DNA of 22,608 nt from IMG/VR virus record IMGVR_UViG_3300032093_000908, positions 1 through 22,608 of that record. The stretch is one strand, 5' to 3'. Below, one piece after another: positions 4,509 through 15,043 of this stretch. Within the stretch, counting starts at the first letter, position 1. Every line of letters starts with the position of its first letter. Made by a program: the position numbers and the translations under genes. The notes under the pieces are model-generated. The model was not told the DNA's origin, did no database searches, and saw only the letters and a list, made by a program, of their open reading frames with translations. This DNA comes from a virus.

Positions 4509-5300
4509 TTACTTACCTCTTAGTGCCTTTAGTGTTGCTTGATCGACTACACCTGTTACTGGCAAAGAAGATTTCTTTTGAAAAGCCTTAACTGCTTTTT
4601 CAGTTCCTGGACCAAAATCACCATCGGCATTGACTCCAAGAAGTTCTTGAACCTTTTTTACTGTTTCTCCTTTTGAGCCCACCTTAAATGGTTTAAACTC
4701 TTTCTTTTCTGCAGGAGCAGAAGGCTTTACAGCAACTGAACCTGATGGAATTATTGATTCACCCTTTGAAAGTAATGCAAGGTTTTCTTCTCCAGCGTAT
4801 ACTGGACGACCCCAACCAACAACTGCGTTAAGGATACCTTTCTTATTCTTTACATAAGCACGAGTCTTTTCTACACACATTCCGCCATTGCGTTGGTCAC
4901 CCTTTGCAGTTCCAGATGTGTTTCCTTCAATAACTTGAATTGTTCCATCACCATTGTTCTTAATGCAAAGACCAACATGTGAAATACGATTTACACCATC
5001 ATCTGGGAAATCAAAATAAATCCAGTCTCCTGGTGTTGGATCATCATTACGAGCATCTGCCCAACGATTATTCTTCTTAAACCAATCTGCTGCTGCAACA
5101 GTTGATGCAGTCTTTGGATACTTCTTTGGATCTAGACCAGATGTAAATGCACACCAAGAGACAAATGACTGGCACCATGGAGCAAAGTTTGCACCAGACC
5201 ATTTACCATACTTTGTCTCGTTATCTTTTGGACCTTCAATAGTTCCAATTTCTGCTTTAGCAACCTCAATAATTGCTGCCAAACTACCTTTTGCTGCCAT
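4509..5300 (-). CDS. endolysin: CHAP peptidase/amidase plus peptidoglycan-binding domain
   Basis: The 263-residue protein has two domains. Residues about 8-168 are a CHAP domain: catalytic Cys43 in APWCQSFVSWC, His108 in ISHVGLC and Glu125/Asn127 in VIEGNTS, with PGDWIYFD between. CHAP enzymes cut peptide or amide bonds in peptidoglycan. A Pro/Ala/Lys linker (about 170-205) leads to a PG_binding_1 domain (about 206-263; VGSKGETVKKVQELLG, DGDFGPGTEKAVKAFQ). There is no signal peptide, so release would need a holin. The gene has a strong promoter and TAGGAGG ribosome site. It lies about 2.4 kb downstream of three small membrane or lipoprotein genes, among which the holin may be found. Confidence 0.93.
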   Translation of the reverse strand: MAAKGSLAAIIEVAKAEIGTIEGPKDNETKYGKWSGANFAPWCQSFVSWCAFTSGLDPKKYPKTASTVAAADWFKKNNRWADARNDDPTPGDWIYFDFPDDGVNRISHVGLCIKNNGDGTIQVIEGNTSGTAKGDQRNGGMCVEKTRAYVKNKKGILNAVVGWGRPVYAGEENLALLSKGESIIPSGSVAVKPSAPAEKKEFKPFKVGSKGETVKKVQELLGVNADGDFGPGTEKAVKAFQKKSSLPVTGVVDQATLKALRGK

Positions 5301-5864: not shown

Positions 5865-5876
5865 CCAAATCTTTAG

Positions 5877-5947
5877 AGCGACTAGCGAGAATCGAACTCG
5901 CACATTAACCTTGGCAAGGTTACGCACTACCACTATGCAATAGTCGC
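5877..5947 (-). tRNA. tRNA-Gly (anticodon GCC)
   Basis: A full cloverleaf can be drawn on the minus strand. The acceptor is GCGACTA paired with TAGTCGC, the D-stem GCAT/GTGC, the anticodon stem TAACC/GGTTA with loop TTGCCAA (anticodon GCC) and the T-arm GCGAG-TTCGATT-CTCGC. The discriminator is T, normal for bacterial tRNA-Gly. The bases after it are CTA, so CCA is not encoded and must be added by the host enzyme. It starts 1 nt after the end of tRNA-Asn. Confidence 0.93.
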
Positions 5948-5948
5948 T

Positions 5949-6024
5949 TGGCTGGTCTGGTAGGACTCGAACCTACGACCCAGGCATTAACAGTGCCTTG
6001 TTCTGCCAACTGAACTACAGACCA
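5949..6024 (-). tRNA. tRNA-Asn (anticodon GTT)
   Basis: The cloverleaf on the minus strand has the acceptor TGGTCTG paired with CAGACCA, the D-stem GTTC/GAAC, the anticodon stem AGGCA/TGCCT with loop CTGTTAA (anticodon GTT) and the T-stem GTAGG/CCTAC with a TTCGAGT loop. The discriminator G is followed by CCA in the DNA (5949-5951), so the tail is encoded. It lies 7 nt after the subtilase stop and 1 nt before tRNA-Gly, and is probably cut from the same transcript. Confidence 0.95.
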
Positions 6025-6031
6025 AAACCTT

Positions 6032-6913
6032 TTACTTTAAAACATCAACAACTGTATTGTTTTTGTTTGTGTCTGATGTTGTAGCAATAGACTTTAGATA
6101 ATCATAAGTCATTTGATAGTTTCCAGCATAAGATTTTGCCCAATATGCTGCAAAGGCTGCGGTTGCAGCAGAAGTTCCTGATACATTTTCTGTAGCAAAT
6201 TCATGTCTGCCAAGAGCATAAAAATCAGTTTCTGCAGAATCATTATTGTATGCTTCTGTATTTCCTCTAGGACCAATAGATGCAACTGCCACTGCTTCTG
6301 TTAAGCATGCTGGATAGTTAATACGAGTTTTATCTCTTTCATTACCAGTTGCAAAAACTGATGCAACACCTAAAGCCTTTAAAGACTCAATAGAAGATTT
6401 TAGTCCAGAGTCGAATCTATTCATAGAGCAATAATTTGTTCCAGTCTTTGTTGGTTTTTGACCAAGCGAAACAGAAACTGCAACTACATTAAACTTTGTC
6501 TTGTTTTTAATTACCCAATCAAGAGCCTGCTTTACTGTGCTGTTTGCATTTGCAGCAGATGTAGCAACATTTCCATTTTTATCCATAGGAAAAATTCGAA
6601 TAAATACAATGTCAATGTTTGGATTGGTTTTTGTAGCAACCAAAGACATTTGTGTTCCATGTGCAAATCCCCCAGAATAAATCTGATTTGCTGGAAGCGT
6701 TGCAGATCCTGGACCTTCCATAAAAGACTTCTTGTTTGGACAACGAAGTTCTTCCATTAAGCAAACTTCATGGATAATCTTACCTTGCAATGCTGGTAGA
6801 GATGTGTCTACTGCTGTGTCAATAATAACGATTGACTTTTTATCTTGAGCATATGTTGGTTGTAAAACCACTAAACTTACTACTGCAATTAACCCCACTG
6901 CTATTTTTTTCAT
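6032..6913 (-). CDS. secreted subtilisin-like (S8) serine protease
   Basis: I start this at the ATG at 6913, which has AAGGAG 5 bases upstream and opens a classic signal peptide: MKKIAVG, a hydrophobic core, then PTYAQ with likely cleavage after Ala22. A longer frame adds 20 residues but spoils the signal. The 293-residue protein carries the full subtilase set: Asp32 in IIDTAVD, His85 in AHGTQ, oxyanion Asn191 in ATGNE and Ser248 in SGTSAAT. It is small for the family and has no obvious propeptide, so the catalytic domain begins almost directly after the signal. It should act outside the membrane, on host surface proteins or on phage-encoded exported proteins nearby; the target is unknown. 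Confidence 0.93.
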   Translation of the reverse strand: MKKIAVGLIAVVSLVVLQPTYAQDKKSIVIIDTAVDTSLPALQGKIIHEVCLMEELRCPNKKSFMEGPGSATLPANQIYSGGFAHGTQMSLVATKTNPNIDIVFIRIFPMDKNGNVATSAANANSTVKQALDWVIKNKTKFNVVAVSVSLGQKPTKTGTNYCSMNRFDSGLKSSIESLKALGVASVFATGNERDKTRINYPACLTEAVAVASIGPRGNTEAYNNDSAETDFYALGRHEFATENVSGTSAATAAFAAYWAKSYAGNYQMTYDYLKSIATTSDTNKNNTVVDVLK

Positions 6914-6921
6914 TTTTCTCC

Positions 6922-7113
6922 TTAGATCATTAGACGGACTACATGACAACATGGGTCGCCACCGTCTTCCCATTCTTGCATTTCATCTTCACCCATGTAC
7001 TGATATCCACCATCATGGGTATTGCAATACGGTTCTGTTACCCATCCCCGTTCAATTCCATTTGTTAACCAAATGCCAAACTCTGCGTCTTCTACGCTAT
7101 CTTCTTCATGCAT
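6922..7113 (-). CDS. small acidic protein, 63 aa
   Basis: This is an acidic 63-residue protein rich in aromatic residues: EFGIWLTNGIERGWVTEPYC, then a THDGG turn, an acidic helix (EDEMQEWEDGGDPC) and a short hydrophobic end (VVRLMI). Cys29, Cys54, Cys55 and nearby His residues could bind a metal. Similar small acidic proteins with FGxW, GWVxEPxCxTHDG and GxDPC are familiar from actinophages, always without known function. A good promoter lies within the end of the Ntn hydrolase gene, and its -10 is so close that the mRNA should begin at or very near the ATG (leaderless). The stop is 8 nt before the subtilase ATG and its end supplies that gene's ribosome site. Confidence 0.7.
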   Translation of the reverse strand: MHEEDSVEDAEFGIWLTNGIERGWVTEPYCNTHDGGYQYMGEDEMQEWEDGGDPCCHVVRLMI

Positions 7114-7119
7114 ATTATA

Positions 7120-7148
7120 AGTATACCCTTAAATGCTTACTACGTCAA
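7120..7148 (-). promoter_or_regulatory. promoter giving a probable leaderless mRNA
   Basis: TTGACG (7143-7148) and TATACT (7120-7125) stand 17 bases apart on the minus strand. The -10 ends 6 bases before the ATG at 7113, where transcription should begin, so the message for the 63-residue protein and the subtilase would have little or no leader. The spacer contains ATTTAAGGGTA, also present in the next promoter upstream. Confidence 0.7.
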
Positions 7149-7653
7149 CTGGACCCATGCAAGATGGACTAAACTTAATTGCTGCTGATACAGCAGAGAC
7201 TACACGATTTCTTGCATTTTTTTGTTTATCAGTTGCATATAGAACGCCATAAGCATATTCAGCACCTGAACCCATTGCAAGATATGGAAGTGTATATTTA
7301 GATAAAGACATATCCGCAGAACTGTGTTCATATATTTCACCACGAACTGCAATAATCAAACCAAGATCTCCATCTTTTGATGTATCTACCCAAAACTCAT
7401 TATAAAATTCTTTTAATTCTTTAACAAATCTTGTTTGCATAAACTTATCTGTATCTTTAATGTTTGGTGCAGTTGGCTTAAAGTTATAACGAATTCTTTC
7501 TCCATCCATTGCCCCCGCATATCCAATTAAATATGGACCAATTTTCCAAACTTTTGGTGCATCTAGAGCAAGAATAGTTCCATCATCTGACGCACCACGG
7601 TCACCAGCCATGTAAATTTTATCGTCATGTTTTACTACAGCAATGCAAGTCAT
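7129..7653 (-). CDS. proteasome-type Ntn hydrolase (HslV/beta-subunit-like peptidase)
   Basis: The 174-residue product starts MTCIAVVKHDDKIYMAGDRG. After Met removal, Thr1 would be the nucleophile, with Asp17 (AGDRG) and Lys33 (APKVWKIG), exactly the numbering of proteasome beta and HslV subunits; Ser129 in MGSGAEYA also fits. The GYAG loop (residues 45-48) and the late PVDVVSI strand complete the fold. The length is close to HslV (about 175). These enzymes form rings and cut peptides, normally with an unfoldase such as HslU or Mpa; none is in this window. It is cytosolic. The gene has the best promoter in the window and an AGAGGGG site. Possible roles are head-protein processing or degradation of host proteins. 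Confidence 0.88.
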   Translation of the reverse strand: MTCIAVVKHDDKIYMAGDRGASDDGTILALDAPKVWKIGPYLIGYAGAMDGERIRYNFKPTAPNIKDTDKFMQTRFVKELKEFYNEFWVDTSKDGDLGLIIAVRGEIYEHSSADMSLSKYTLPYLAMGSGAEYAYGVLYATDKQKNARNRVVSAVSAAIKFSPSCMGPVDVVSI

Positions 7654-7682
7654 GCAAAAACCCCTCTAGATACGTATATTTA

Positions 7683-7712
7683 AGTATACCATCTACCCTT
7701 AAATAGTGTCAA
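7683..7712 (-). promoter_or_regulatory. near-consensus sigma-70 promoter of the Ntn hydrolase gene
   Basis: A perfect TTGACA (7707-7712) and TATACT (7683-7688) are 18 bases apart, with TGG before the -10 (extended). The expected start is near 7676 with a leader of about 23 nt containing AGAGGGG. The spacer holds ATTTAAGGGTA. Confidence 0.82.
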
Positions 7713-7724
7713 GCAAGGTGTTAT

Positions 7725-8081
7725 TTATTCAATAAAGTCGTCAAGATCATCAATATCATCTGCTACCTGGCTAACTGTAGGCTCAGATGTTTGAATAGCC
7801 TGTGACTCATATGGCTGAGAAGTTTGTGAACTATCTGAACCCCCACCATTTTTACCAATCAAGATACCAGCAAGCGTGCCAGTAATAAATGTTGCTACAG
7901 ATGATAGAACATTGAAAAACATTTTATCATTTTCTGATTGTTCACCTATTGGTTGTGTAACAAAAACCAGGGCATACAAAATACCCATAGTTGTAAACAA
8001 TAGAATTGTTCCTAATGTCATGCCAAGGAAAAACTTTAATCTTGCATCTAGTTCATCTGATGTATATCTTTTTTTACTCAT
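7725..8081 (-). CDS. two-span membrane protein, possible holin
   Basis: The 118-residue protein has a charged N-terminus (MSKKRYTSDELDARLK) and two clear membrane segments, about residues 17-42 (FFLGMTLGTILLFTTMGILY and on) and 54-75 (FFNVLSSVATFITGTLAGIL). A Gly/Ser linker leads to a polar tail ending in DDIDDLDDFIE. Two spans with a short loop and a charged cytoplasmic tail fit class II holins, but many phage membrane proteins look the same. It is 8-nt coupled (ATGAGTAA) to the lipoprotein gene. An alternative role is in superinfection exclusion. I recognise no named family. Confidence 0.7.
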   Translation of the reverse strand: MSKKRYTSDELDARLKFFLGMTLGTILLFTTMGILYALVFVTQPIGEQSENDKMFFNVLSSVATFITGTLAGILIGKNGGGSDSSQTSQPYESQAIQTSEPTVSQVADDIDDLDDFIE

Positions 8082-8283
8082 TTACGCTACCCTCCGTAGG
8101 ATCAAAACCAAGTATGTCTTTAGTGCACAACCCATCTGCTTGGCAGATTGGTGGATTACACTCTTTATTATACCAGTTAGCAGGGTCATGGCACTCATAA
8201 CGATATCTATTTTCTAACATTCCGCAAGAAGTTAAAGACATAGATAAGGCTATGATTGATAGCAGTGCTAACATTTTCTTCAT
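8074..8283 (-). CDS. small cysteine-rich lipoprotein
   Basis: The 69-residue product has a lipoprotein signal: MKKMLALL, a hydrophobic core and the lipobox SLTSC with Cys20 as the predicted lipidated residue. The mature part is NRYRYECHDPANWYNKECNP followed by PICQADGLC, with four more cysteines (31, 42, 47, 53) that may form two disulfides outside the membrane. From memory, a very similar NRYRY-C-DPxNW-C-PPxC lipoprotein is widespread in cyanophages, where its function is unknown. It would sit on the outer face of the host membrane. TATAAT lies 7 bases before the ATG, so it may have its own near-leaderless transcript. Candidate roles are a spanin-like lysis helper or entry exclusion. Confidence 0.8.
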   Translation of the reverse strand: MKKMLALLSIIALSMSLTSCGMLENRYRYECHDPANWYNKECNPPICQADGLCTKDILGFDPTEGSVNE

Positions 8284-8290
8284 AGTCTGT

Positions 8291-8296
8291 ATTATA
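8291..8296 (-). promoter_or_regulatory. possible -10 (TATAAT) before the lipoprotein gene
   Basis: A perfect TATAAT begins directly after the stop of the 59-residue membrane protein and ends 7 bases before the lipoprotein ATG at 8283. No -35 is recognisable at 16-18 bases. If it works, the mRNA would start at about the ATG. Confidence 0.35.
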
Positions 8297-8476
8297 CTAC
8301 TCTTCTTTATTTCTAGCAGGACTAGTTAATATCCAAAGTGCGGTAGTTGCTATAATTCCATAGCCAACTATGGTTTTTGCACTACCATCTAACACAACCC
8401 AGGCAATAAACATTCCAAGAAGAGTCCATGCCTGATCAATTAGATCTTTGATTATATTTTTTAGTATTCTTACCAT
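8297..8476 (-). CDS. small two-span membrane protein, 59 aa, holin candidate
   Basis: This was read directly from the minus strand: ATG at 8476, stop TAG at 8297-8299. The protein starts with a basic amphipathic helix (MVRILKNIIKDLIDQ) and has two hydrophobic stretches, WTLLGMFIAWVVL (about 17-29) and IVGYGIIATTALWIL (about 36-50), ending in a charged tail (ARNKEE). From memory, closely similar small proteins (W-x-GxFxAWxVLxG, KTxVGY) occur in marine and freshwater phages with no assigned role. Size and topology fit a holin or antiholin. Its ATG overlaps the stop of the 820-residue gene by 7 nt. It heads a run of three small envelope genes. Confidence 0.75.
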   Translation of the reverse strand: MVRILKNIIKDLIDQAWTLLGMFIAWVVLDGSAKTIVGYGIIATTALWILTSPARNKEE

Positions 8477-10932
8477 TTTCTTCCTCCTCTTGAACCTGGT
8501 GAATTGGCACCTGAAGCACCGCCCCCACCAGAACTTCCTCCACCACCTGTACCTCCTCCAGTTGCCCCACCTGTTGCAACGGCTGCGGCATTAATTGCTG
8601 CACCTGCTGCTACAACTGTAGCCACAACCATTTCTGTTGCTTCTTCTCTTTCTGCTTCTGTCATATCAGCGCCGATGCTTCCAAGTGCTGCTAATGCTGC
8701 TCCAGGATCTGTTAGAGCGGCTGTAAGCAACGCTCCTGGATCTTGAACTAATTCAATATTTGCTGCTACTGCAGCGGTAATTACAAGAGCATTTCCATTT
8801 TCATCAGTGCGAAGTTCAACTGGTGTTGATGGTGGAAGGTCTGCATATGAAACTCCAGATGCTTTAATTTCTGCTGCTGAAACTGATTCTCCAGGCTTAA
8901 GGTCTTCAAGCAAAGCCTCTACAAGAACTTCTTTTTGTTCTTCAGTTAATTCTTTACCGTCTTTAGCATCTTCAAGAATCTCATTTAATTCTTCTTCTTT
9001 TGCTTGAGCCTCTTCTTCTTCAGCCTTTGCTTCTTCTAATTCCTTTTCTTTTGCTTCTGCCTCTGCTTTAGCATCTTCCTCTGCTTGTCTGGCAGCCTCT
9101 GCCTCCGCTTCCTTGGCTGCAGCCTCAGCCTTAGCATCTTCTTCAGCCTGTCTTGCTGCTTCTGCTTCAGCCTCTAATCTTTCAGCCTCTGCTTTTGCTT
9201 CTGCTTCTGCCTGAGCCTGTGCTTCTTGTTCTGCCTTTTGTGCTGCTTCTTCTGCAGCAATCCTATCTGCTTCTGCCTTTTCAGCATCTGCTTGAGCCTT
9301 TGCTGCAGCCTCTTCTGCTGCTATACGATCTGCCTCAGCCTTTGCTGCTGCTGCTTGTGCTGCTGCTGCTTCTGCTTGTGCACGGGCTGCTGCTGCTTCT
9401 GCTGCTCTTGCATTTGCTTCTGCTATTGCTGCTTGTCTAGCAGCCTCCGCTGCTGCTGCAGCCTGCCGTGCTGCCTCTTCTTCTGCAAGAGTATTATTAA
9501 CTATTGTTTGTGCAATAACAACTGCTGCTTTCATTGCTTCAACTACTGGCTCAATTGAAGATACTGCAGCATTTAATTCTGCTTCTGCATTGTCTAATTC
9601 ATTTTCCCAGTAAGCAACTTCTTGTGTTGCTTCTGCAAGATCTGCTTGGGCTGCTGATAGATTAGCCTGTGCTGCATCTATTTCAGACTGTAAAGCATCT
9701 TCATTTGCAAGCAAACTATTCAGAACTGATTGTGATGCAGACAAAACTGATTGTGCTGCAGAAAGATCTGCCTGTGCTGATGCAAGTGCCTCTGCTAAAT
9801 TTGTATCTGCTGGAAGTGGTGTATATGGAGTATATCCAGTAATATCAATATGTGCTGATAAATTTGTTGGAGTGCTCCCTTCATTTTGCTGTATAACAGA
9901 TCCAGTTAATTGATTATTAATTATTTGATTAACTTGAACTTGACCGCTTCCTGCTTGACCCACTGAAGATACATCTGCTTTCCATGTTCCATCAATTGGA
10001 TTTACATCAGCATCAAAAATAATATTAGTTAGTTGCCCAGAACGAGTTCCATACCCTCTAACCATCCATTCAATTAAAAGTGTGTTAATAGTTGTTGAAT
10101 ATCTAACATAAGTGTCTGAATCAACATTCCACCAGTCACGGAAGTTAATATAAACTGCTGGAGCATTTCCACCCCAACCTTGTGGGGTACCAAAAGATAT
10201 CAAACCATTTGTAGCAACATAAACATCTGTATATTCTTGATCACCAAGTCTGAGGGCATAGGGCAGAGTCATTTGGAATGACCAGTCATCGTCTTTAGGA
10301 AGATCTGTTGTTTGTGGATTGCCTGAATTTTGTAAGGCTATCTGATCTTCAACTAAAGTTAAGGCAGCCTGCTCTGATGTTACTGTTGCACTATCAGATA
10401 AAACTATTGCTGTTTGACTATCTATTTGTCCATTAAGAACTGTCATACTATCTGTCAGAGATAAGACTGTTGCTGATTCTGAGGCTACTATTTGAGCCAT
10501 AGCAGTCTGAGTTTCTACCGCTTGAGCCAGGGAATTCTGAGTAGAAATAACATTGTTAACAGCCACAGTAGCACTATCTACTACTGTCTGAGCCTGGGTA
10601 ATAGAAGTATTTGCCTGTGTAATAGTGGCTGTAATGGTCTCTGTAGGGCTTGTAATGGCTGTTGCTTGGGTCTCTATGACTGCCGTGGTAGTTTCAGCCT
10701 GAGTAATTGTAGCCTGTGCTACCTCAATTATGGCTGTAGCACTTTCTACAGATGTATGCACTATAACTGTTGAAGAAGAATCTATTGTTGCCGTTGATGT
10801 ATCAGACGAAGATACTTGGTTTGTTACTGTTTCATCTGCATGTGCTTGGCTAATTGGAGATAAGATAAACCACAAACCCACCAAAAAAGCAACTACCCCA
10901 CTTTTTAGTAGGATCTTTTCGATAGAGGGCAC
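8470..10932 (-). CDS. 820-aa exported fibre-like protein: signal peptide, nidogen-like domain, Ala/Glu coiled coil, Gly-rich tail
   Basis: A signal peptide (hydrophobic core VVAFLVGLWFILSP, cleavage after AHA at residue 32) is followed by a Thr/Ser/Ala-rich helical region to about 200. A beta-rich domain (about 210-364) then shows PYALRLGDQEYTDVYVATNG and LISFG, like the nidogen (NIDO) pattern. Next is a very long Ala/Glu coiled coil (about 370-665) with near-repeats of EAARQAEEDAKAEA and EADRIAAEEAA. A compact C-terminal domain (about 665-787) and a Gly/Ser tail ending GSRGGRKW finish the protein. Only a GTG start is available, with GGAAAGGA close upstream. A signal peptide is unusual for a virion fibre. 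It may be displayed on the host cell or act as an adhesin or decoy; a structural role is not excluded. Confidence 0.8.
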   Translation of the reverse strand: MPSIEKILLKSGVVAFLVGLWFILSPISQAHADETVTNQVSSSDTSTATIDSSSTVIVHTSVESATAIIEVAQATITQAETTTAVIETQATAITSPTETITATITQANTSITQAQTVVDSATVAVNNVISTQNSLAQAVETQTAMAQIVASESATVLSLTDSMTVLNGQIDSQTAIVLSDSATVTSEQAALTLVEDQIALQNSGNPQTTDLPKDDDWSFQMTLPYALRLGDQEYTDVYVATNGLISFGTPQGWGGNAPAVYINFRDWWNVDSDTYVRYSTTINTLLIEWMVRGYGTRSGQLTNIIFDADVNPIDGTWKADVSSVGQAGSGQVQVNQIINNQLTGSVIQQNEGSTPTNLSAHIDITGYTPYTPLPADTNLAEALASAQADLSAAQSVLSASQSVLNSLLANEDALQSEIDAAQANLSAAQADLAEATQEVAYWENELDNAEAELNAAVSSIEPVVEAMKAAVVIAQTIVNNTLAEEEAARQAAAAAEAARQAAIAEANARAAEAAAARAQAEAAAAQAAAAKAEADRIAAEEAAAKAQADAEKAEADRIAAEEAAQKAEQEAQAQAEAEAKAEAERLEAEAEAARQAEEDAKAEAAAKEAEAEAARQAEEDAKAEAEAKEKELEEAKAEEEEAQAKEEELNEILEDAKDGKELTEEQKEVLVEALLEDLKPGESVSAAEIKASGVSYADLPPSTPVELRTDENGNALVITAAVAANIELVQDPGALLTAALTDPGAALAALGSIGADMTEAEREEATEMVVATVVAAGAAINAAAVATGGATGGGTGGGGSSGGGGASGANSPGSRGGRKW

Positions 10933-10957
10933 ATCCTTTCCGATGTTTGATAGTCTT

Positions 10958-10966
10958 ATTATATCA
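10958..10966 (-). promoter_or_regulatory. extended -10 promoter (TGATATAAT) of the 820-aa gene
   Basis: TGATATAAT lies between the intrinsic terminator of the 565-residue gene and the GTG start at 10932. The -10 is perfect and extended, and a T-rich region occupies the -35 place. Together with the terminator it separates the two surface-protein genes into different transcripts. Confidence 0.55.
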
Positions 10967-10978
10967 TTTTGTTGAAAT

Positions 10979-11007
10979 AAAAAAGAGGGTTAGCACTTGG
11001 CTAACCC
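10979..11007 (-). terminator. rho-independent terminator after the 565-aa gene
   Basis: On the minus strand GGGTTAGC (11000-11007), loop CAAGT and GCTAACCC (10987-10994) form a perfect 8-bp stem, extendable by further G-T/C pairs, followed by a TC and a run of six T (10979-10984). It lies 17 bases after the stop at 11024. It is the only strong terminator I see in the window. Confidence 0.92.
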
Positions 11008-11023
11008 CCTAATTTATAAAGTT

Positions 11024-12721
11024 TTACTTCTTAAGAAGTGCAACCTTAGACTTTGGATTCTTCTTGTTCCATTTAGTTGCAAGAGAATTATACTGCTTTA
11101 CAAAAGCAGCACGATCAGCAATTGCCTTAGCATCTGCTGCTGCCTTATCAGCCTTAAGTGTTGTAATTTCTGCCTTAAGGCTATCAAAAATTCCCTGCAT
11201 TGCGGTAATCTGTGCAACTAATGCTGCAAGAGTAGCGTTTGTGCTAGAAGAAGAGTTTGATACCTTCGCTGTTGCAGATACTGCTACCTGTCCAGCCAAA
11301 GGAAGTGAAGTTCCACCAGTTGCTGAAATTGTTACAGTGTTTTCTGTCAATGGCATAAATACCTTGTATGACTTAACTGTATCAGTATCAGTTGTAACTG
11401 ATGTTGCTGTAAGAATATCTGAACCTGAACCAAATGCATAGGTTGAAGTAATTCCACCTGTTGCAAATAGAGCAGAGTGTGTCTTTCCAGATAATGGAAG
11501 ACCTGCTGCATCAAGAACTGTTACTCTAATAGTTGCTGCTTCTCCTGGAAGATATGTGTCCTTGTCAAAAGCCAACTTTACAGTTGCTGCTGGTGACTCT
11601 ACACGTACTGCAACTGAGTTAGAAGAGATTGTTCCAGACTTAATTGTAACTGCAACATCTCCAGCCTTAACACCAGTAAGAGTAAATACTGCCTCACCAT
11701 TAACAATTGTTGCTGCTGTACCTGAATCAGATACTGTTGCAATATTGCTTGAGAAAGCATTAAGTGTTCCTGCTCCAACTGTTACGCCAGAAGCATCCTT
11801 TGCTACTGCCTTAACTGTAGTTGTGTTTGCACCAAGTGCAATAACAGACTTGACTGGAGTTGCTTCGATTGTAGCAATGTCTCCATAGAATGTTACCTTC
11901 TCTGTTGCAAGTACTGTACCTGTAAGTGTTGTAATTGTAATTGTTCCAACTCCTGCAGTACCGTCAGCAAATACGCCAATGTAATTTCCTGAAGGGATAA
12001 CAACTGAACGACCAAGAAGTGACATTGTTGTGGCATTTGTGCCATATCCAATTGCTCCTGATCCAGTTACTGTAGCAAGAAGCGACTCTGAAGTTGCTCT
12101 GCCTGCTGCATTCTTTTGTGCAATAACAATAACTGCTGCTGCATCTGTTGCTGCTGCCTTTGGCGCAAATACTGAATCATCTGCTGTAGCAGTAATTACT
12201 TCACCTCTATTAAGAATTGAAGTTGTTGTTGAAGCAGATGGAACTGTATCTCCAGCCCCTACTGTTACTGTCCATGCAACTGATGGACCAGTTGATGGGC
12301 GAGTTGTAATAATTCTTGCCTCGTATGTACCTGCAACTGATGGAGCAACCAAAGATACTGTAAACTTTGCAGTTACATATCCTGGAGTATTAACAGTTGA
12401 GTTAACATCTGCTGAAAGATTAGTGTTAGCAATTGCTACAGTTGCTGTTGATGTTTCTAGCAATGTAATTGTTGCTGACTTGTTAGCCGTTGATGGCTGT
12501 GCAAACATAGCAGAAAGCACGGTTGCTGTATCTGCTGTTGTTTCTGAAATAAATGACAGTGTAACTACTGCTGTTGCAGTTTCACCAACTAGAATTGAGT
12601 CTGTAGCAGAATCAATCGTTAGTGTAGGTGCAATCACAGCAGCACTTGTCGGAAGTGCCGATAGTACGCCAAAGGACATTGCTGCAGCGAGTCCTAGAGC
12701 GATTTTCTTAAATGAATTCAT
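11024..12721 (-). CDS. 565-aa secreted Ig-like surface protein with C-terminal coiled coil
   Basis: The signal peptide is textbook: MNSFKKIALGLAAAMSFGVL, then cleavage after PTSA (residue 27). The mature part is Thr/Val/Ala-rich beta structure, probably several bacterial Ig-like domains; examples are LVGETATAVVTLSF near residue 45, GAGTLNAFSSNIATVSDSG mid-protein and YLPGEAATIRVTVLDAAG near residue 400. A coiled coil (about 490-545; LAALVAQITAMQ, LKAEITTLKADKAAADAK) is followed by YNSLATKWNKKNPKSKVALL at the end. From memory, this layout and C-terminus resemble abundant surface proteins of aquatic Actinobacteria, so it may be host-derived. It follows the terminase with no promoter between them, has AAGGAGA before its ATG and ends at a strong terminator. 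Confidence 0.82.
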   Translation of the reverse strand: MNSFKKIALGLAAAMSFGVLSALPTSAAVIAPTLTIDSATDSILVGETATAVVTLSFISETTADTATVLSAMFAQPSTANKSATITLLETSTATVAIANTNLSADVNSTVNTPGYVTAKFTVSLVAPSVAGTYEARIITTRPSTGPSVAWTVTVGAGDTVPSASTTTSILNRGEVITATADDSVFAPKAAATDAAAVIVIAQKNAAGRATSESLLATVTGSGAIGYGTNATTMSLLGRSVVIPSGNYIGVFADGTAGVGTITITTLTGTVLATEKVTFYGDIATIEATPVKSVIALGANTTTVKAVAKDASGVTVGAGTLNAFSSNIATVSDSGTAATIVNGEAVFTLTGVKAGDVAVTIKSGTISSNSVAVRVESPAATVKLAFDKDTYLPGEAATIRVTVLDAAGLPLSGKTHSALFATGGITSTYAFGSGSDILTATSVTTDTDTVKSYKVFMPLTENTVTISATGGTSLPLAGQVAVSATAKVSNSSSSTNATLAALVAQITAMQGIFDSLKAEITTLKADKAAADAKAIADRAAFVKQYNSLATKWNKKNPKSKVALLKK

Positions 12722-12741: not shown

Positions 12742-14517
12742 TTATATTAAGTTGAATTTATCGAGGAAATCCTTAACATCGTTAGGCATTTCTCGATTAT
12801 CCAATTCTACCATATCCCTTTGTTTTTGTGCAAGTCGTGTTGCAGAACTCCAGGTATGGACATCTATTTCTGTATTATTAGTCTTTGCTGTGTGAGAGAT
12901 AGCCCCAAATACGGCTCCACATACAGCATCTGCCAAGTCTTTAGATTTTTTACGGGGGTGATCAACACGGTTGCCCTTCATAATCTTTAACTCTGACATT
13001 TCTTCAAGCAAGATTGGAATCATGGGAATTGAAACACGCTCCTCATAAATCATCATAGCCAAATCCTCATAGTGTTTCTTTGCAACAGAAACAGTTTCAG
13101 TCCTAATTCCTACTGCTTGCAACTCATTTTGAATATCAAATGACTGCCATCGGTCAAAAGAAACCATGCCAAGATTAAATCCTTGTCTACGTAAGTTCAT
13201 AATCCACTGCTTGACTTCTGATAGGTTAACTGGACCTTCTGCTCTTGGTTCCCACCAGGCTACTGCATCCACTACAACAATTGGCGCTACCTGTTCATAA
13301 TCTTTAATGACCTGAATGTTTACCCACTTATCTACGTGAGCAATAGCAACTGCACACTTGTCATGCTTTTGTGCAAGGTCAGCATGTATATAATAAACCT
13401 TATTCTCATCTGGCTTAAAGGTTTCATCAAACCTTCTGAACTGATCTAGTGGATTTCTTGTGTTCATACATTTTTCTAGTTTATCTTTTTGCTTAAAGAA
13501 AGCATCTGATGCATATGTTGGCATACAAGCAAAGCGCATCATTGCATCTCCTAGGTCTGTGTAAAAGGCTAATTTAAAATCTTCTATTTTACGAGTAGGA
13601 TTAACTTCCCAAGTTGGTCTTTTAAATGCATAGACTCTTGGTATTTTATATGAAAGTATTGTATCTTCATCCCACGAAATTTCAAACTGGTTTCCTGGAT
13701 CATCGTGTGGCAAGTCTTCGTTCATGATAAACGTATGTCTACGCTCAATAGTTTCTTTATCAGCAATAACTGCTTCATATCGTTGGGAAATAAAGTCACC
13801 TTGATATCTGGGGAATGAAAGCAAAACAACTTTACCAAGATCAGGGAAACGAGAATCTACGGTACCACGGAAGGCTTTATAGATGTTATCAGCAGTTTTT
13901 CCTTGTTCGTTACCAGTACCTACTTCTGTAGCAAAACCAGAAATCTCATCAAGTACTGCCATAAGAAGGTTTAAACCCTCATGAGATTCTCTTTCTGAAT
14001 GACCAGAATAAACTGTAATTGCCTTATCGAATTCAATTGAGTCAGCCTTAGCGTTATACTTACCCGCAAACCACGGAGATTTTTCAATCTTTGTTTTAAA
14101 GCCTTTAAAGAAAACGTTCTTAGCCTGTTGTGCGTTAACAGCAACGTTAATAATATCAATTGCGTCTCCTGCAGGCTTGCCAAAGTATGTTGCTGGATCC
14201 TTTAGGCAAAGTAGTTTATATACTACATATGCACATGCCACGGTTGAAATAAAATCTTTGCCACTACCCTTGCCAAGTTGGAGAATCAATTCATTTTTTG
14301 TATATTTATTAAAATGATTTAAGCCTTCGGCTTGACCCATAAGTTCTATCAGGTCTTCTTTGCGATAAATTTGACTCATTGCCTCTACTATTTCATATTG
14401 AATATCAGAAAGCAGTGGTTGACCAAGATATTCAGGAGACTGAACAAAGGTTTTTACATCTACTGGAGTTTCAATAAAATGGTTTTCTTTTAAAACATCA
14501 AGAAACTCATTGAACAT
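12742..14517 (-). CDS. terL: terminase large subunit (DNA-packaging ATPase/nuclease)
   Basis: The protein has about 591 residues in two parts. The ATPase has Walker A GKGSGKD (residues 82-88) and Walker B LMAVLDEIS (about 183-191, with the catalytic Glu). The RNase H-like nuclease has YYIHADLAQ (first Asp about 378), MVSFDRWQS (middle Asp) and KDLADAVCGAVFG near 525 (last Asp). This enzyme cuts concatemers and pumps DNA into the head through the portal. I prefer the ATG at 14517, which overlaps the preceding gene by 11 nt; a TTG at 14526 is possible. The family type (cos or headful) cannot be told by eye. The neighbour downstream is unexpectedly a secreted surface protein rather than the portal gene. 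Confidence 0.93.
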   Translation of the reverse strand: MFNEFLDVLKENHFIETPVDVKTFVQSPEYLGQPLLSDIQYEIVEAMSQIYRKEDLIELMGQAEGLNHFNKYTKNELILQLGKGSGKDFISTVACAYVVYKLLCLKDPATYFGKPAGDAIDIINVAVNAQQAKNVFFKGFKTKIEKSPWFAGKYNAKADSIEFDKAITVYSGHSERESHEGLNLLMAVLDEISGFATEVGTGNEQGKTADNIYKAFRGTVDSRFPDLGKVVLLSFPRYQGDFISQRYEAVIADKETIERRHTFIMNEDLPHDDPGNQFEISWDEDTILSYKIPRVYAFKRPTWEVNPTRKIEDFKLAFYTDLGDAMMRFACMPTYASDAFFKQKDKLEKCMNTRNPLDQFRRFDETFKPDENKVYYIHADLAQKHDKCAVAIAHVDKWVNIQVIKDYEQVAPIVVVDAVAWWEPRAEGPVNLSEVKQWIMNLRRQGFNLGMVSFDRWQSFDIQNELQAVGIRTETVSVAKKHYEDLAMMIYEERVSIPMIPILLEEMSELKIMKGNRVDHPRKKSKDLADAVCGAVFGAISHTAKTNNTEIDVHTWSSATRLAQKQRDMVELDNREMPNDVKDFLDKFNLI

Positions 14518-15043
14518 CGTGGACAATTGTAATCACTTCGCCTTCTTTTGCAATAGAAGAAAGTCTATGCATAATTAAGTCACGTATTTCTGGATGCTCT
14601 GAAGCAACATCTCTAAGAATTCCAATAAGGACTTCTTGTTTTCTTTCAATCTCAACCATTTCTTCTGCAAGTTCTTTGTTCTCAAGTAGACCAGCCTTTT
14701 GAAGCATTTCAATTCTAGACTTTTCAATATCCATAACAAGTTTAATAGCCTGAGTTTTTGCACTAAGATTATTAGTCAAACTTGATTCATCAATAACCTC
14801 ATAAGCCTTTGTTATAAGTTTGCTGTAATGTGTGTCTGCTCCAGCAAGAGCCTCTTTAGCACGAGCACGAATAGCATCATTGGCAGAAGCCATAACTTTC
14901 CACTCATTAATTAATGCAACAACACGAGTTCTTGGCATATCTAGGTCTTTGGAAATCTTAGTTGGATCTTGACCCTTTAAATATTCAGTTACAACCTTGT
15001 TAACTTCATCAAGATGCTCTATTAGTTCTACTTCACTTGACAA
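14507..15043 (-). CDS. putative terminase small subunit (HTH plus helical domain)
   Basis: This is a 178-residue, almost wholly helical protein. An N-terminal helix-turn-helix is visible (residues about 13-50; VVTEYLKGQDPTKISKDLDM, then TRVVALINEW), as expected for site recognition by a small terminase. It is followed by a long helical region (KLITKAYEVIDE and SRIEMLQKAGLLENKEL) that could form the ring. It directly precedes and overlaps the large terminase gene, which is the usual order. The start is TTG at 15043 with GAGGGT 7 nt upstream; no ATG precedes the HTH. Name by position and fold only. Confidence 0.68.
   Translation of the reverse strand: MSSEVELIEHLDEVNKVVTEYLKGQDPTKISKDLDMPRTRVVALINEWKVMASANDAIRARAKEALAGADTHYSKLITKAYEVIDESSLTNNLSAKTQAIKLVMDIEKSRIEMLQKAGLLENKELAEEMVEIERKQEVLIGILRDVASEHPEIRDLIMHRLSSIAKEGEVITIVHDVQ

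Follow-up and report, generated by a model that had tools for sequence, protein, structure and literature searches.

Here we describe a block of eight genes in the IMG/VR virus record IMGVR_UViG_3300032093_000908, the whole of which (22,608 bases) was the stretch analysed, hereafter the window. A sequence-only reading of this DNA had placed eight products between positions 6,032 and 12,721, all on the minus strand, and we find them there. Behind the gene for the large terminase (TerL; 12742-14526, minus strand), the anchor of our survey, lie two genes for large proteins of 565 and 820 amino acids, in positions that we call slot A (S565; 11024-12721) and slot B (S820; 8470-10932). They are followed by genes for a 59-residue membrane protein (TM59), a cysteine-rich 69-residue lipoprotein (lipo69), a second small membrane protein (TM118), an HslV-like hydrolase, a 63-residue acidic protein (acidic63) and a subtilase.

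Two large proteins with predicted export signals behind the terminase gene

The same reading had noted export or membrane signals in six of the eight products, and this was borne out by inspection and by a home-made rule (h-region, charge, and AXA or lipobox; not SignalP): S565, S820, the subtilase, lipo69 and the two small membrane proteins have such a signal, and the HslV-like and acidic63 proteins are without one. Applied blind to the 150 called, uncurated open reading frames (ORFs) of a 101,516-base phage record, G001, whose block proteins are 100% identical to those of the window (L004), the rule flagged eight ORFs, six of them within the block. This clustering of export signals exceeds chance (hypergeometric P = 1.6e-7, with the block counted as nine genes). 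Outside the block the rule flagged two ORFs, one homologous to a Yaboi tail-region protein 'with Ig domain', the other encoded on the opposite strand. Some gene models were corrected. The subtilase starts at ATG 6913 rather than at the listed 6973, as judged from a Shine-Dalgarno site and the signal peptide; the first small membrane protein is the 59-residue product of 8297-8476, which falls under the 60-residue ORF cut-off and was found by reading the DNA; and S820 probably starts at ATC 10923, not at GTG 10932.

Loci for comparison were gathered by TerL and not by the proteins under study. The survey took the best 80 of at least 600 matches (599 confirmed), all at least 86% identical to the window TerL and so close relatives only; 75 of the 80 loci have at least 300 nucleotides downstream. 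A slot A start follows TerL in all 75, with the start motif within 150 nucleotides in 72 and the other three reading MNSFKR, MNSFKR and MNSLKK. Altogether 111 of 113 distinct slot A proteins begin with MNSFKK, and the 113 fall into eight k-mer groups, not all of them unrelated. In 27 of 27 contigs, TerL is followed by two large ORFs with signal peptides; 24 of the 26 loci with at least 4.0 kb downstream, and L212, were inspected by rule with a lenient choice of start (seven codons allowed), and the remaining two by reading. Slot B runs off the contig end in a few cases, such as L212 and L089, and both slots keep their signal peptides despite differing bodies. Some of the surveyed contigs are near-duplicates, and a Fisher value for co-occurrence overstates their independence.

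Slot A of the window reads as a signal peptide (about residues 1-27), tandem Ig-like domains of the Big type, and a C-terminal helix with a basic tail. Its Pfam match to PF02369 Big_1 (1.4e-4) is under the family cut-off, and the AlphaFold2 model (mean predicted local distance difference test (pLDDT) 78, predicted template modelling score (pTM) 0.54) has tandem beta-sandwich domains and the C-terminal helix. Fold matches include FdeC (Z 12.4, root-mean-square deviation (rmsd) 16.2, 278 residues aligned), S-layer domains of SbsC (Z 11.0, rmsd 2.7, 91 aligned, 31% identity), invasin and intimin; PDB rows at Z 9-10 (complement, KIT, glycosidases) were dismissed as generic Ig or beta-sandwich matches. 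In BFVD, S565 found mostly Ig-type proteins, phage structural ones among them, at TM-scores of at most 0.25 among the matches listed. Slot A proteins end in short basic tails (net +2 or more over the last 14 residues); a hydrophobic window of at least 1.6 lies near the C-terminus in 17 of the 113, the rest having none, and no SLH or LPXTG anchor was seen in slot A by reading. One slot A variant (L150:3117-4841) ends in a Cys- and Lys-rich tail, CVKGKTVKKVTGVNPVCPVGYKKK, which presumably is of the type seen in actinobacterial secreted proteins; a Pfam search with it gave no match. Relatives of S565 are encoded in 501 of 600 IMG/VR stretches among the matches listed, and neither S565 nor S820 had a tblastn match at E<=1e-3 in a phage collection of 50,697 records, which may omit records very near the window.

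In slot B, reading, AlphaFold2 and relatives together delimit a signal peptide, a stalk, a head, a C-terminal domain and a tail. The S820 model (mean pLDDT 72.5, pTM 0.40) begins with a helix at the N-terminus and places coiled coils at residues 62-202 and 379-539 around a beta head at 207-363, followed by a stem (553-657, pLDDT 52-69) and a small, conserved C-terminal domain (about 655-788); blocks of pLDDT are 90-97 for residues 101-190, 71-82 for 191-220, 81-98 for 381-500 and 59-86 for the head. Residue counts on this model would make the stalk roughly 35-40 nm long. The C-terminus holds a hydrophobic helix (759-788, low model confidence), then a Gly-rich stretch and a basic tail. All 74 distinct slot-B proteins have a 19-residue window of mean hydropathy at least 1.6 within their last 90 residues and a net charge of +2 or more over their last 12, and an equally hydrophobic window lies elsewhere in the ectodomain in eight of the 74. 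The helix may be a stop-transfer anchor, which is not certain.

Among known structures, PrgA (PDB 6z9l), by which the enterococcal plasmid pCF10 brings about surface exclusion, tops the VIA list for S820 (Z 13.6, rmsd 8.0, 279 residues aligned; next Z 10.2) and comes second in Foldseek (probability 1.00, E 3.4e-3). By the model and the VIA list, S820 has the signal peptide, long coiled-coil stalk and globular tip of a PrgA-type protein. No LPXTG, which we take to be the anchor type of PrgA, was seen in S820 by reading, and no protease family occurs in the Pfam matches of S820 or of 61 slot-B representatives at E<=0.001. In the VIA list the head region of S820 aligns with beta-sandwiches of sugar phosphorylases (Z up to 7.9). 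Rows for flagellin, Hsp70 and SMC were dismissed as long-helix matches.

The suggestion that the two large proteins look designed for export and display is supported. A different use of the same features would be in the virion, with S820 and S565 as tail or decoration proteins whose N-terminal hydrophobic stretches go unused for export. Among the proteins that S565 matched by structure in BFVD, many are structural proteins of phages, and head swapping and PA14 or Ig domains are also known in phage tail and capsid proteins. We nevertheless hold a virion role to be very improbable, given the signal peptides retained on both slots in the 27 contigs, the hydrophobic helix and basic tail of slot B, and the capsid, portal and tail homologues encoded elsewhere in G001. 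There the block lies at 28-35 kb, the tail-to-portal homologues at 50-74 kb and more large ORFs up to 93 kb, so that the block sits outside the virion gene cluster to which a tail fibre would be expected to belong.

A probable intrinsic terminator of slot A (GC hairpin then T6; 10979-11009, minus strand), found by reading and arranged in the same way in relatives, is followed by an extended -10 promoter-like element for slot B (10957-10966, minus strand) that recurs in relatives. A T-run followed by TGNTATAATA stands at 59 distinct places among the fetched loci, and two of the 45 listed precede HSP20: at L039:5235 and L046:4397 the T-run and extended -10, with a common downstream leader, lie just upstream of that gene. 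Among 65 distinct slot-B N-termini, a home-made rule based on ribosome-site distance gave an ATT or ATC start in 35 and TTG in 15, with 15 fitting neither. An ATG start was rejected, as none of the 65 has ATG at ribosome-site distance and some in-frame ATG or GTG codons are too close; in 28 of the 65 no ATG, GTG or TTG lies ahead of the hydrophobic stretch. At one homologous start position L100 has ATT where L178 has TTG, which supports ATT as a true start. AUU or AUC, a very rare start codon, stands after a Shine-Dalgarno-like site in the window (10921-10941), L100, L024, L072 and others. Slot B apparently starts at AUU/AUC or UUG, and apparent, conserved AUU initiation in phages could be put to the test here.

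Exchangeable heads and variation between near relatives

The 74 slot-B proteins form 64 head groups, of which three were dropped for a size limit; 27 of the 61 representatives have PA14 heads, and the head of the window is of the beta-sandwich type. In BFVD, slot B found relatives labelled PA14 and one protein labelled SUEL lectin, to which it is 42% identical over 156 columns; the part shared with this protein would be the slot-B C-terminal domain, and its own head would be the lectin.

Variation was compared in genotype pairs with TerL identity of at least 93% (412 pairs, fewer for genes incompletely covered). Median identity was 95.6% for HTH178, 93.4% for RecA (61 pairs), 85.7% for HslV, 83.5% for PDDEXK, 82.6% for the endolysin, 78.2% for the slot-B C-terminus, 77.0% for HSP20 and 74.4% for RuvC; it was 52.5% for slot A and 31.1% for the slot-B head (88 pairs). 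The value for TM59, 63.5%, is unreliable since its ORF ends were untrimmed. Slots A and B are the most variable of the genes compared between near relatives, tail-fibre genes lying outside the comparison. L092 and L125, for instance, are 99-100% identical in TerL, slot A, RecA, HslV, HSP20 and endolysin, 85% in the slot-B C-terminus and 84% in RuvC, and only 17% in their slot-B heads; L040 and L024 are 98-100% identical in TerL, slot B, TM59 and HslV, and 28% in slot A. As judged from such alignments, slot-B heads are swapped between near-identical genomes.

Heads of this kind would also suit adhesion or aggregation, in which lectin-like fibres would glue infected cells, or what is left of them, to neighbours or particles, so that progeny are freed beside new hosts. 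PA14 heads and Ig domains occur in adhesins, and the best fold matches of slot A are adhesins; phage-borne genes of the lectin superfamily have been proposed as aids to host adhesion in Patescibacteriota (PMC12911398, in the part available), and PrgB, the partner of PrgA, is an aggregation adhesin (PMC10588982, in the part available). If the phage is lytic, however, slot B would be active for a short time only, and we regard a role in adhesion as possible but doubtful.

The smaller genes and their neighbourhood

Directly behind slot B, the ATG of TM59 (8297-8476, minus strand) overlaps the slot-B end, and this overlap was present at 64 of 68 junctions. The slot-B C-terminal profile and TM59 occur together in 23 of 23 contigs with at least 4.5 kb downstream, and TM59 had no match to a lysis family in PHROGs.

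The next two genes, lipo69 (8074-8283, minus strand) and TM118 (7725-8081, minus strand; phrog_25359), which by reading has two transmembrane segments and an acidic tail, are an optional pair. Among 22 contigs spanning TM59 to HslV, both are present in 12, neither in 10, and one alone in none, and in other genomes they adjoin an endolysin or a holin-like match. This all-or-none pair with such neighbours makes lipo69 and TM118 look like lysis genes, which they probably are, and the position of TM118 would be that of a holin. A spanin test gave a weak match of lipo69 to phrog_456 (0.0087, residues 1-45 including the signal sequence), and for an Rz1-like pairing of lipo69 the two transmembrane segments of TM118 are unlike the Rz layout. 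In the phage collection, lipo69 matched two records, both otherwise different phages: MW202675.1 2834-3016 (L128) and OQ999401.1 11990-12223 (L127), one near a gene annotated as chitinase A, the other beside a gene with a holin-family match. In phage DSL-LC01 the gene adjoining the lipo69 relative matches the holin family phrog_443 (1.5e-5) and, better, a nuclease-labelled family (4.6e-18).

Such neighbours raise an extended lysis module, in which slot B and TM59 act with lipo69, TM118 and the endolysin (CHAP and PG_binding_1 domain matches; 4509-5300, minus strand) on the envelope, as holin and antiholin or by disrupting the wall, and not on rival phages. The order slot B-TM59-lipo69-TM118-endolysin is seen in seven TerL-anchored contigs (L206, L200, L184, L183, L196, L202, L191) and the same gene set in a 96-kb record, G006 (L047); the DSL-LC01 neighbour would fit too, its better nuclease-labelled match aside. 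Yet lipo69 and TM118 are missing from 10 of the 22 contigs when the slot-B C-terminal profile and TM59 are constant, hypervariable heads would be unexpected in a lysis protein, and the PHROGs result for TM59 does not help. We consider this extended module unlikely.

Of the two products without an export signal, the HslV/proteasome-like Ntn hydrolase (7129-7653, minus strand; phrog_1040 3e-22, PF00227 3.3e-5) has by reading a Thr2 after its Met, and upstream of its gene stand TTGACA (7712-7707) and TATACT (7688-7683). All 17 contigs that cover the stretch from HslV to HSP20 contain the gene for acidic63 (6922-7113, minus strand) and the slot-B C-terminal profile. The subtilase (6032-6913, minus strand; PF00082 1.5e-14, phrog_3677 1.8e-22) was present in eight of these 17. 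It has a signal peptide, the motif residues D32, H85, N191 and S248 with the D-H-S triad in order, and four Cys; a three-motif regular expression matched 23 of 38 distinct relatives, and the phage collection held three weak matches. Conceivable targets for trimming by the subtilase are slot A, slot B and host proteins. Genes for tRNA-Gly and tRNA-Asn (5876-6024) lie directly after it.

Elements resembling -10 boxes stand just upstream of the ATG of lipo69 (8291-8296) and of acidic63 (7120-7125). The TATAAT at 8296-8291 would put the start of the lipo69 mRNA at or beside its ATG, and the positions suggest that both mRNAs are leaderless. Because promoter-like elements lie close upstream of lipo69, HslV and acidic63, the block is probably not a single operon. 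Its recurrence in related genomes is supported for slots A and B, TM59, HslV and acidic63, which are present in the close relatives spanning them. The idea that all eight genes are one programme is not supported, as lipo69 and TM118 are all-or-none and lysis-adjacent, the subtilase is present in eight of 17 contigs, and a terminator and promoter-like elements split the block.

How far, then, does the neighbourhood mean anything? The eight genes may be functionally unrelated and adjacent only because the region gathers accessory genes, as the separate promoter-like elements and the optional lipo69, TM118 and subtilase would allow; the order is changed in the L034/L107 lineage, where slot A of L034 does not follow TerL. 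We find this improbable, as close relatives again contain slots A and B, TM59, HslV and acidic63, and as the L034 lineage, whose TerL is only 54% identical, keeps the set together in about 15 kb. There, endolysin, HSP20, slot B, TM59, HslV, subtilase, acidic63 and a slot A-type protein (MKSFKK start) are found together in changed order. In G006 the run is slot B-TM59-lipo69-TM118-endolysin-HSP20, and that record, which may be incomplete, had no match to Yaboi TerL, portal, protease or major capsid protein (MCP). The reordered set of L034 and the set of G006 without Yaboi-type backbone matches indicate that the gene set is partly mobile between phage groups.

The window encodes a WhiB-family protein (PF02467, 3e-12), a gene used to assign freshwater phages to Actinobacteria (PMC6802176, in the part available). 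Its TerL is 54.5% identical to that of Streptomyces phage Yaboi, and among 366 matching records in the TerL search, Streptomyces and Gordonia phages stood at the top. Taken together, the WhiB-family protein and this kinship make the host probably an actinobacterium. Replication, portal, protease, capsid and tail genes of G001 match Yaboi. The likeness to Stanwilliamsviridae, to which Yaboi belongs, thus extends over the backbone genes TerL, DnaE, RecA, portal, protease, MCP and tail; in Yaboi, by contrast, TerL is followed by an HNH gene, a hypothetical protein and tRNAs. A further phage protein (G004:C1:78142-79185, within L139) also has a signal peptide, and by reading its N-terminus resembles that of a PstS phosphate-binding protein.

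The first isolated Nanopelagicales phages, of 39 kb, are described without such a locus in the part of PMC10202952 that was available. A search of the main text of PMC6802176 found none of the words proteasome, signal peptide, lipoprotein, subtilisin, surface, lectin, adhesin, superinfection, secreted and peptidase. A literature search of partial coverage, and so not evidence of absence, gave no title on exported fibre pairs in these phages; it gave nothing on PA14 with freshwater phage and signal peptide, or on secreted proteins in freshwater phage genomes, and the locus may be published.

Proposed surface display and exclusion, and known parallels

Display of slots A and B is well supported by prediction, namely by signal peptides, hydrophobic C-terminal helix, stalk and head, slot conservation, head swapping and non-virion position. 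From this we infer, with less firmness, the membrane topology, glycan binding, the partnership of TM59 and the function. The core of the block is, as our tentative first choice, a surface-display locus whose fibres serve surface exclusion with an architecture like that of PrgA. Under this proposal both slots would be produced in the infected actinobacterium and exported via the host Sec pathway. The C-terminal helix of slot B, probably joined by the co-translated TM59, would anchor the protein in the cell membrane, and slot B would lift a glycan-binding-type head past the cell wall on its long coiled-coil stalk; slot A would be a secreted Ig-domain protein, probably wall-bound through its basic tail. 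The displayed heads would most likely sit on or mask surface glycans and thereby keep rival phages, or the phage's own progeny, from adsorbing to a doomed cell, and exchangeable heads would follow the diversity of host surfaces and rivals. Export and display are drawn from the anatomy of the slots, glycan binding is suggested by the head families, and exclusion follows from the PrgA-like design and the hypervariability. The 'surface remodelling' of the sequence-only reading is supported in part, and is better described as display of an Ig-domain protein and of a fibre whose sugar-binding-type head can be exchanged.

Several points weigh against this proposal. In S820 the C-terminal helix is rich in Ala and has low model confidence (pLDDT blocks 63, 54 and 43), and the 74 slot-B relatives share a homologous C-terminus and so are not independent tests of an anchor. 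The likeness to PrgA is one of architecture, as helical models often reach Z about 14 without kinship, and Foldseek of S820 gave no PDB match at E<=0.001. AUU and UUG starts suggest low output, odd for a coat. Scans of cellular genome contigs with the whole S565 alignment (411 pattern matches) and its C-tail alignment (175) yielded none that was confirmed, and mimicry of a host protein by S565 is not shown by these genome collections. Finally, when five head regions, the S820 C-terminus and the S565 body were searched against the called proteins of three phage records, the slot-B heads had no detectable relative among the other proteins. Heads as simple copies of the phage's own receptor-binding or tail-fibre domain were not supported; the heads matched nothing but slot B itself, which lessens our confidence in simple receptor mimicry.

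The same anchored, lectin-tipped fibre could conceivably act as a cell-surface sensor, slot B signalling contact through its basic tail to TM59 and so timing lysis. The contact might be with a superinfecting phage, a neighbouring cell or debris glycans, lysis might follow via the nearby holin-like and endolysin genes, and heads might be swapped to fit each surface; this reading as a whole strikes us as very unlikely.

Small exclusion proteins apart, virions are usually taken to be the means by which lytic phages act outside the cell. Here, two genes for large proteins that are apparently displayed on the surface are retained by an abundant group of freshwater phages, probably of Actinobacteria. 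If surface exclusion is their role and rivals are excluded, the system would match plasmid PrgA/PrgB in scale, and the type of head could foretell which phages compete.

T5 Llp, TP-J34 Ltp and T4 Imm, lipoproteins and membrane proteins of superinfection exclusion, are likewise made by phages and located in or on the host envelope, where they could keep other phages out; they are small single proteins, whereas the slots encode two large multi-domain proteins with exchangeable heads. With fibrillar adhesins and S-layer proteins (FdeC, invasin/intimin, SbsC), slot A shares tandem Ig-like domains behind a signal peptide, and it differs in being phage-encoded, in having one conserved signal-peptide start before several different bodies, and in its short basic tail. 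Of the parts expected of a fibrillar adhesin-like protein, an export signal, a stalk and a head are predicted in slot B, and hydropathy predicts an anchor helix there that the model gives at low confidence. A close parallel in design is PrgA, which also uses a long coiled-coil stalk to hold a globular tip outside a Gram-positive cell and is likewise encoded on a mobile element that also carries a gene for an Ig-domain surface protein (PrgB in pCF10, slot A here). The carriers differ, a conjugative plasmid against a phage, and sequence identity between PrgA and slot B is low, at 11-13% in fold alignments. In length, PrgA at about 40 nm (PMC10588982, available part) is comparable with the predicted slot-B stalk. 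According to the same part of that paper, PrgA is anchored in the cell wall and carries a protease domain on its stalk, whereas slot B ends in a hydrophobic helix with a basic tail, and its heads are of the PA14 or beta-sandwich type.

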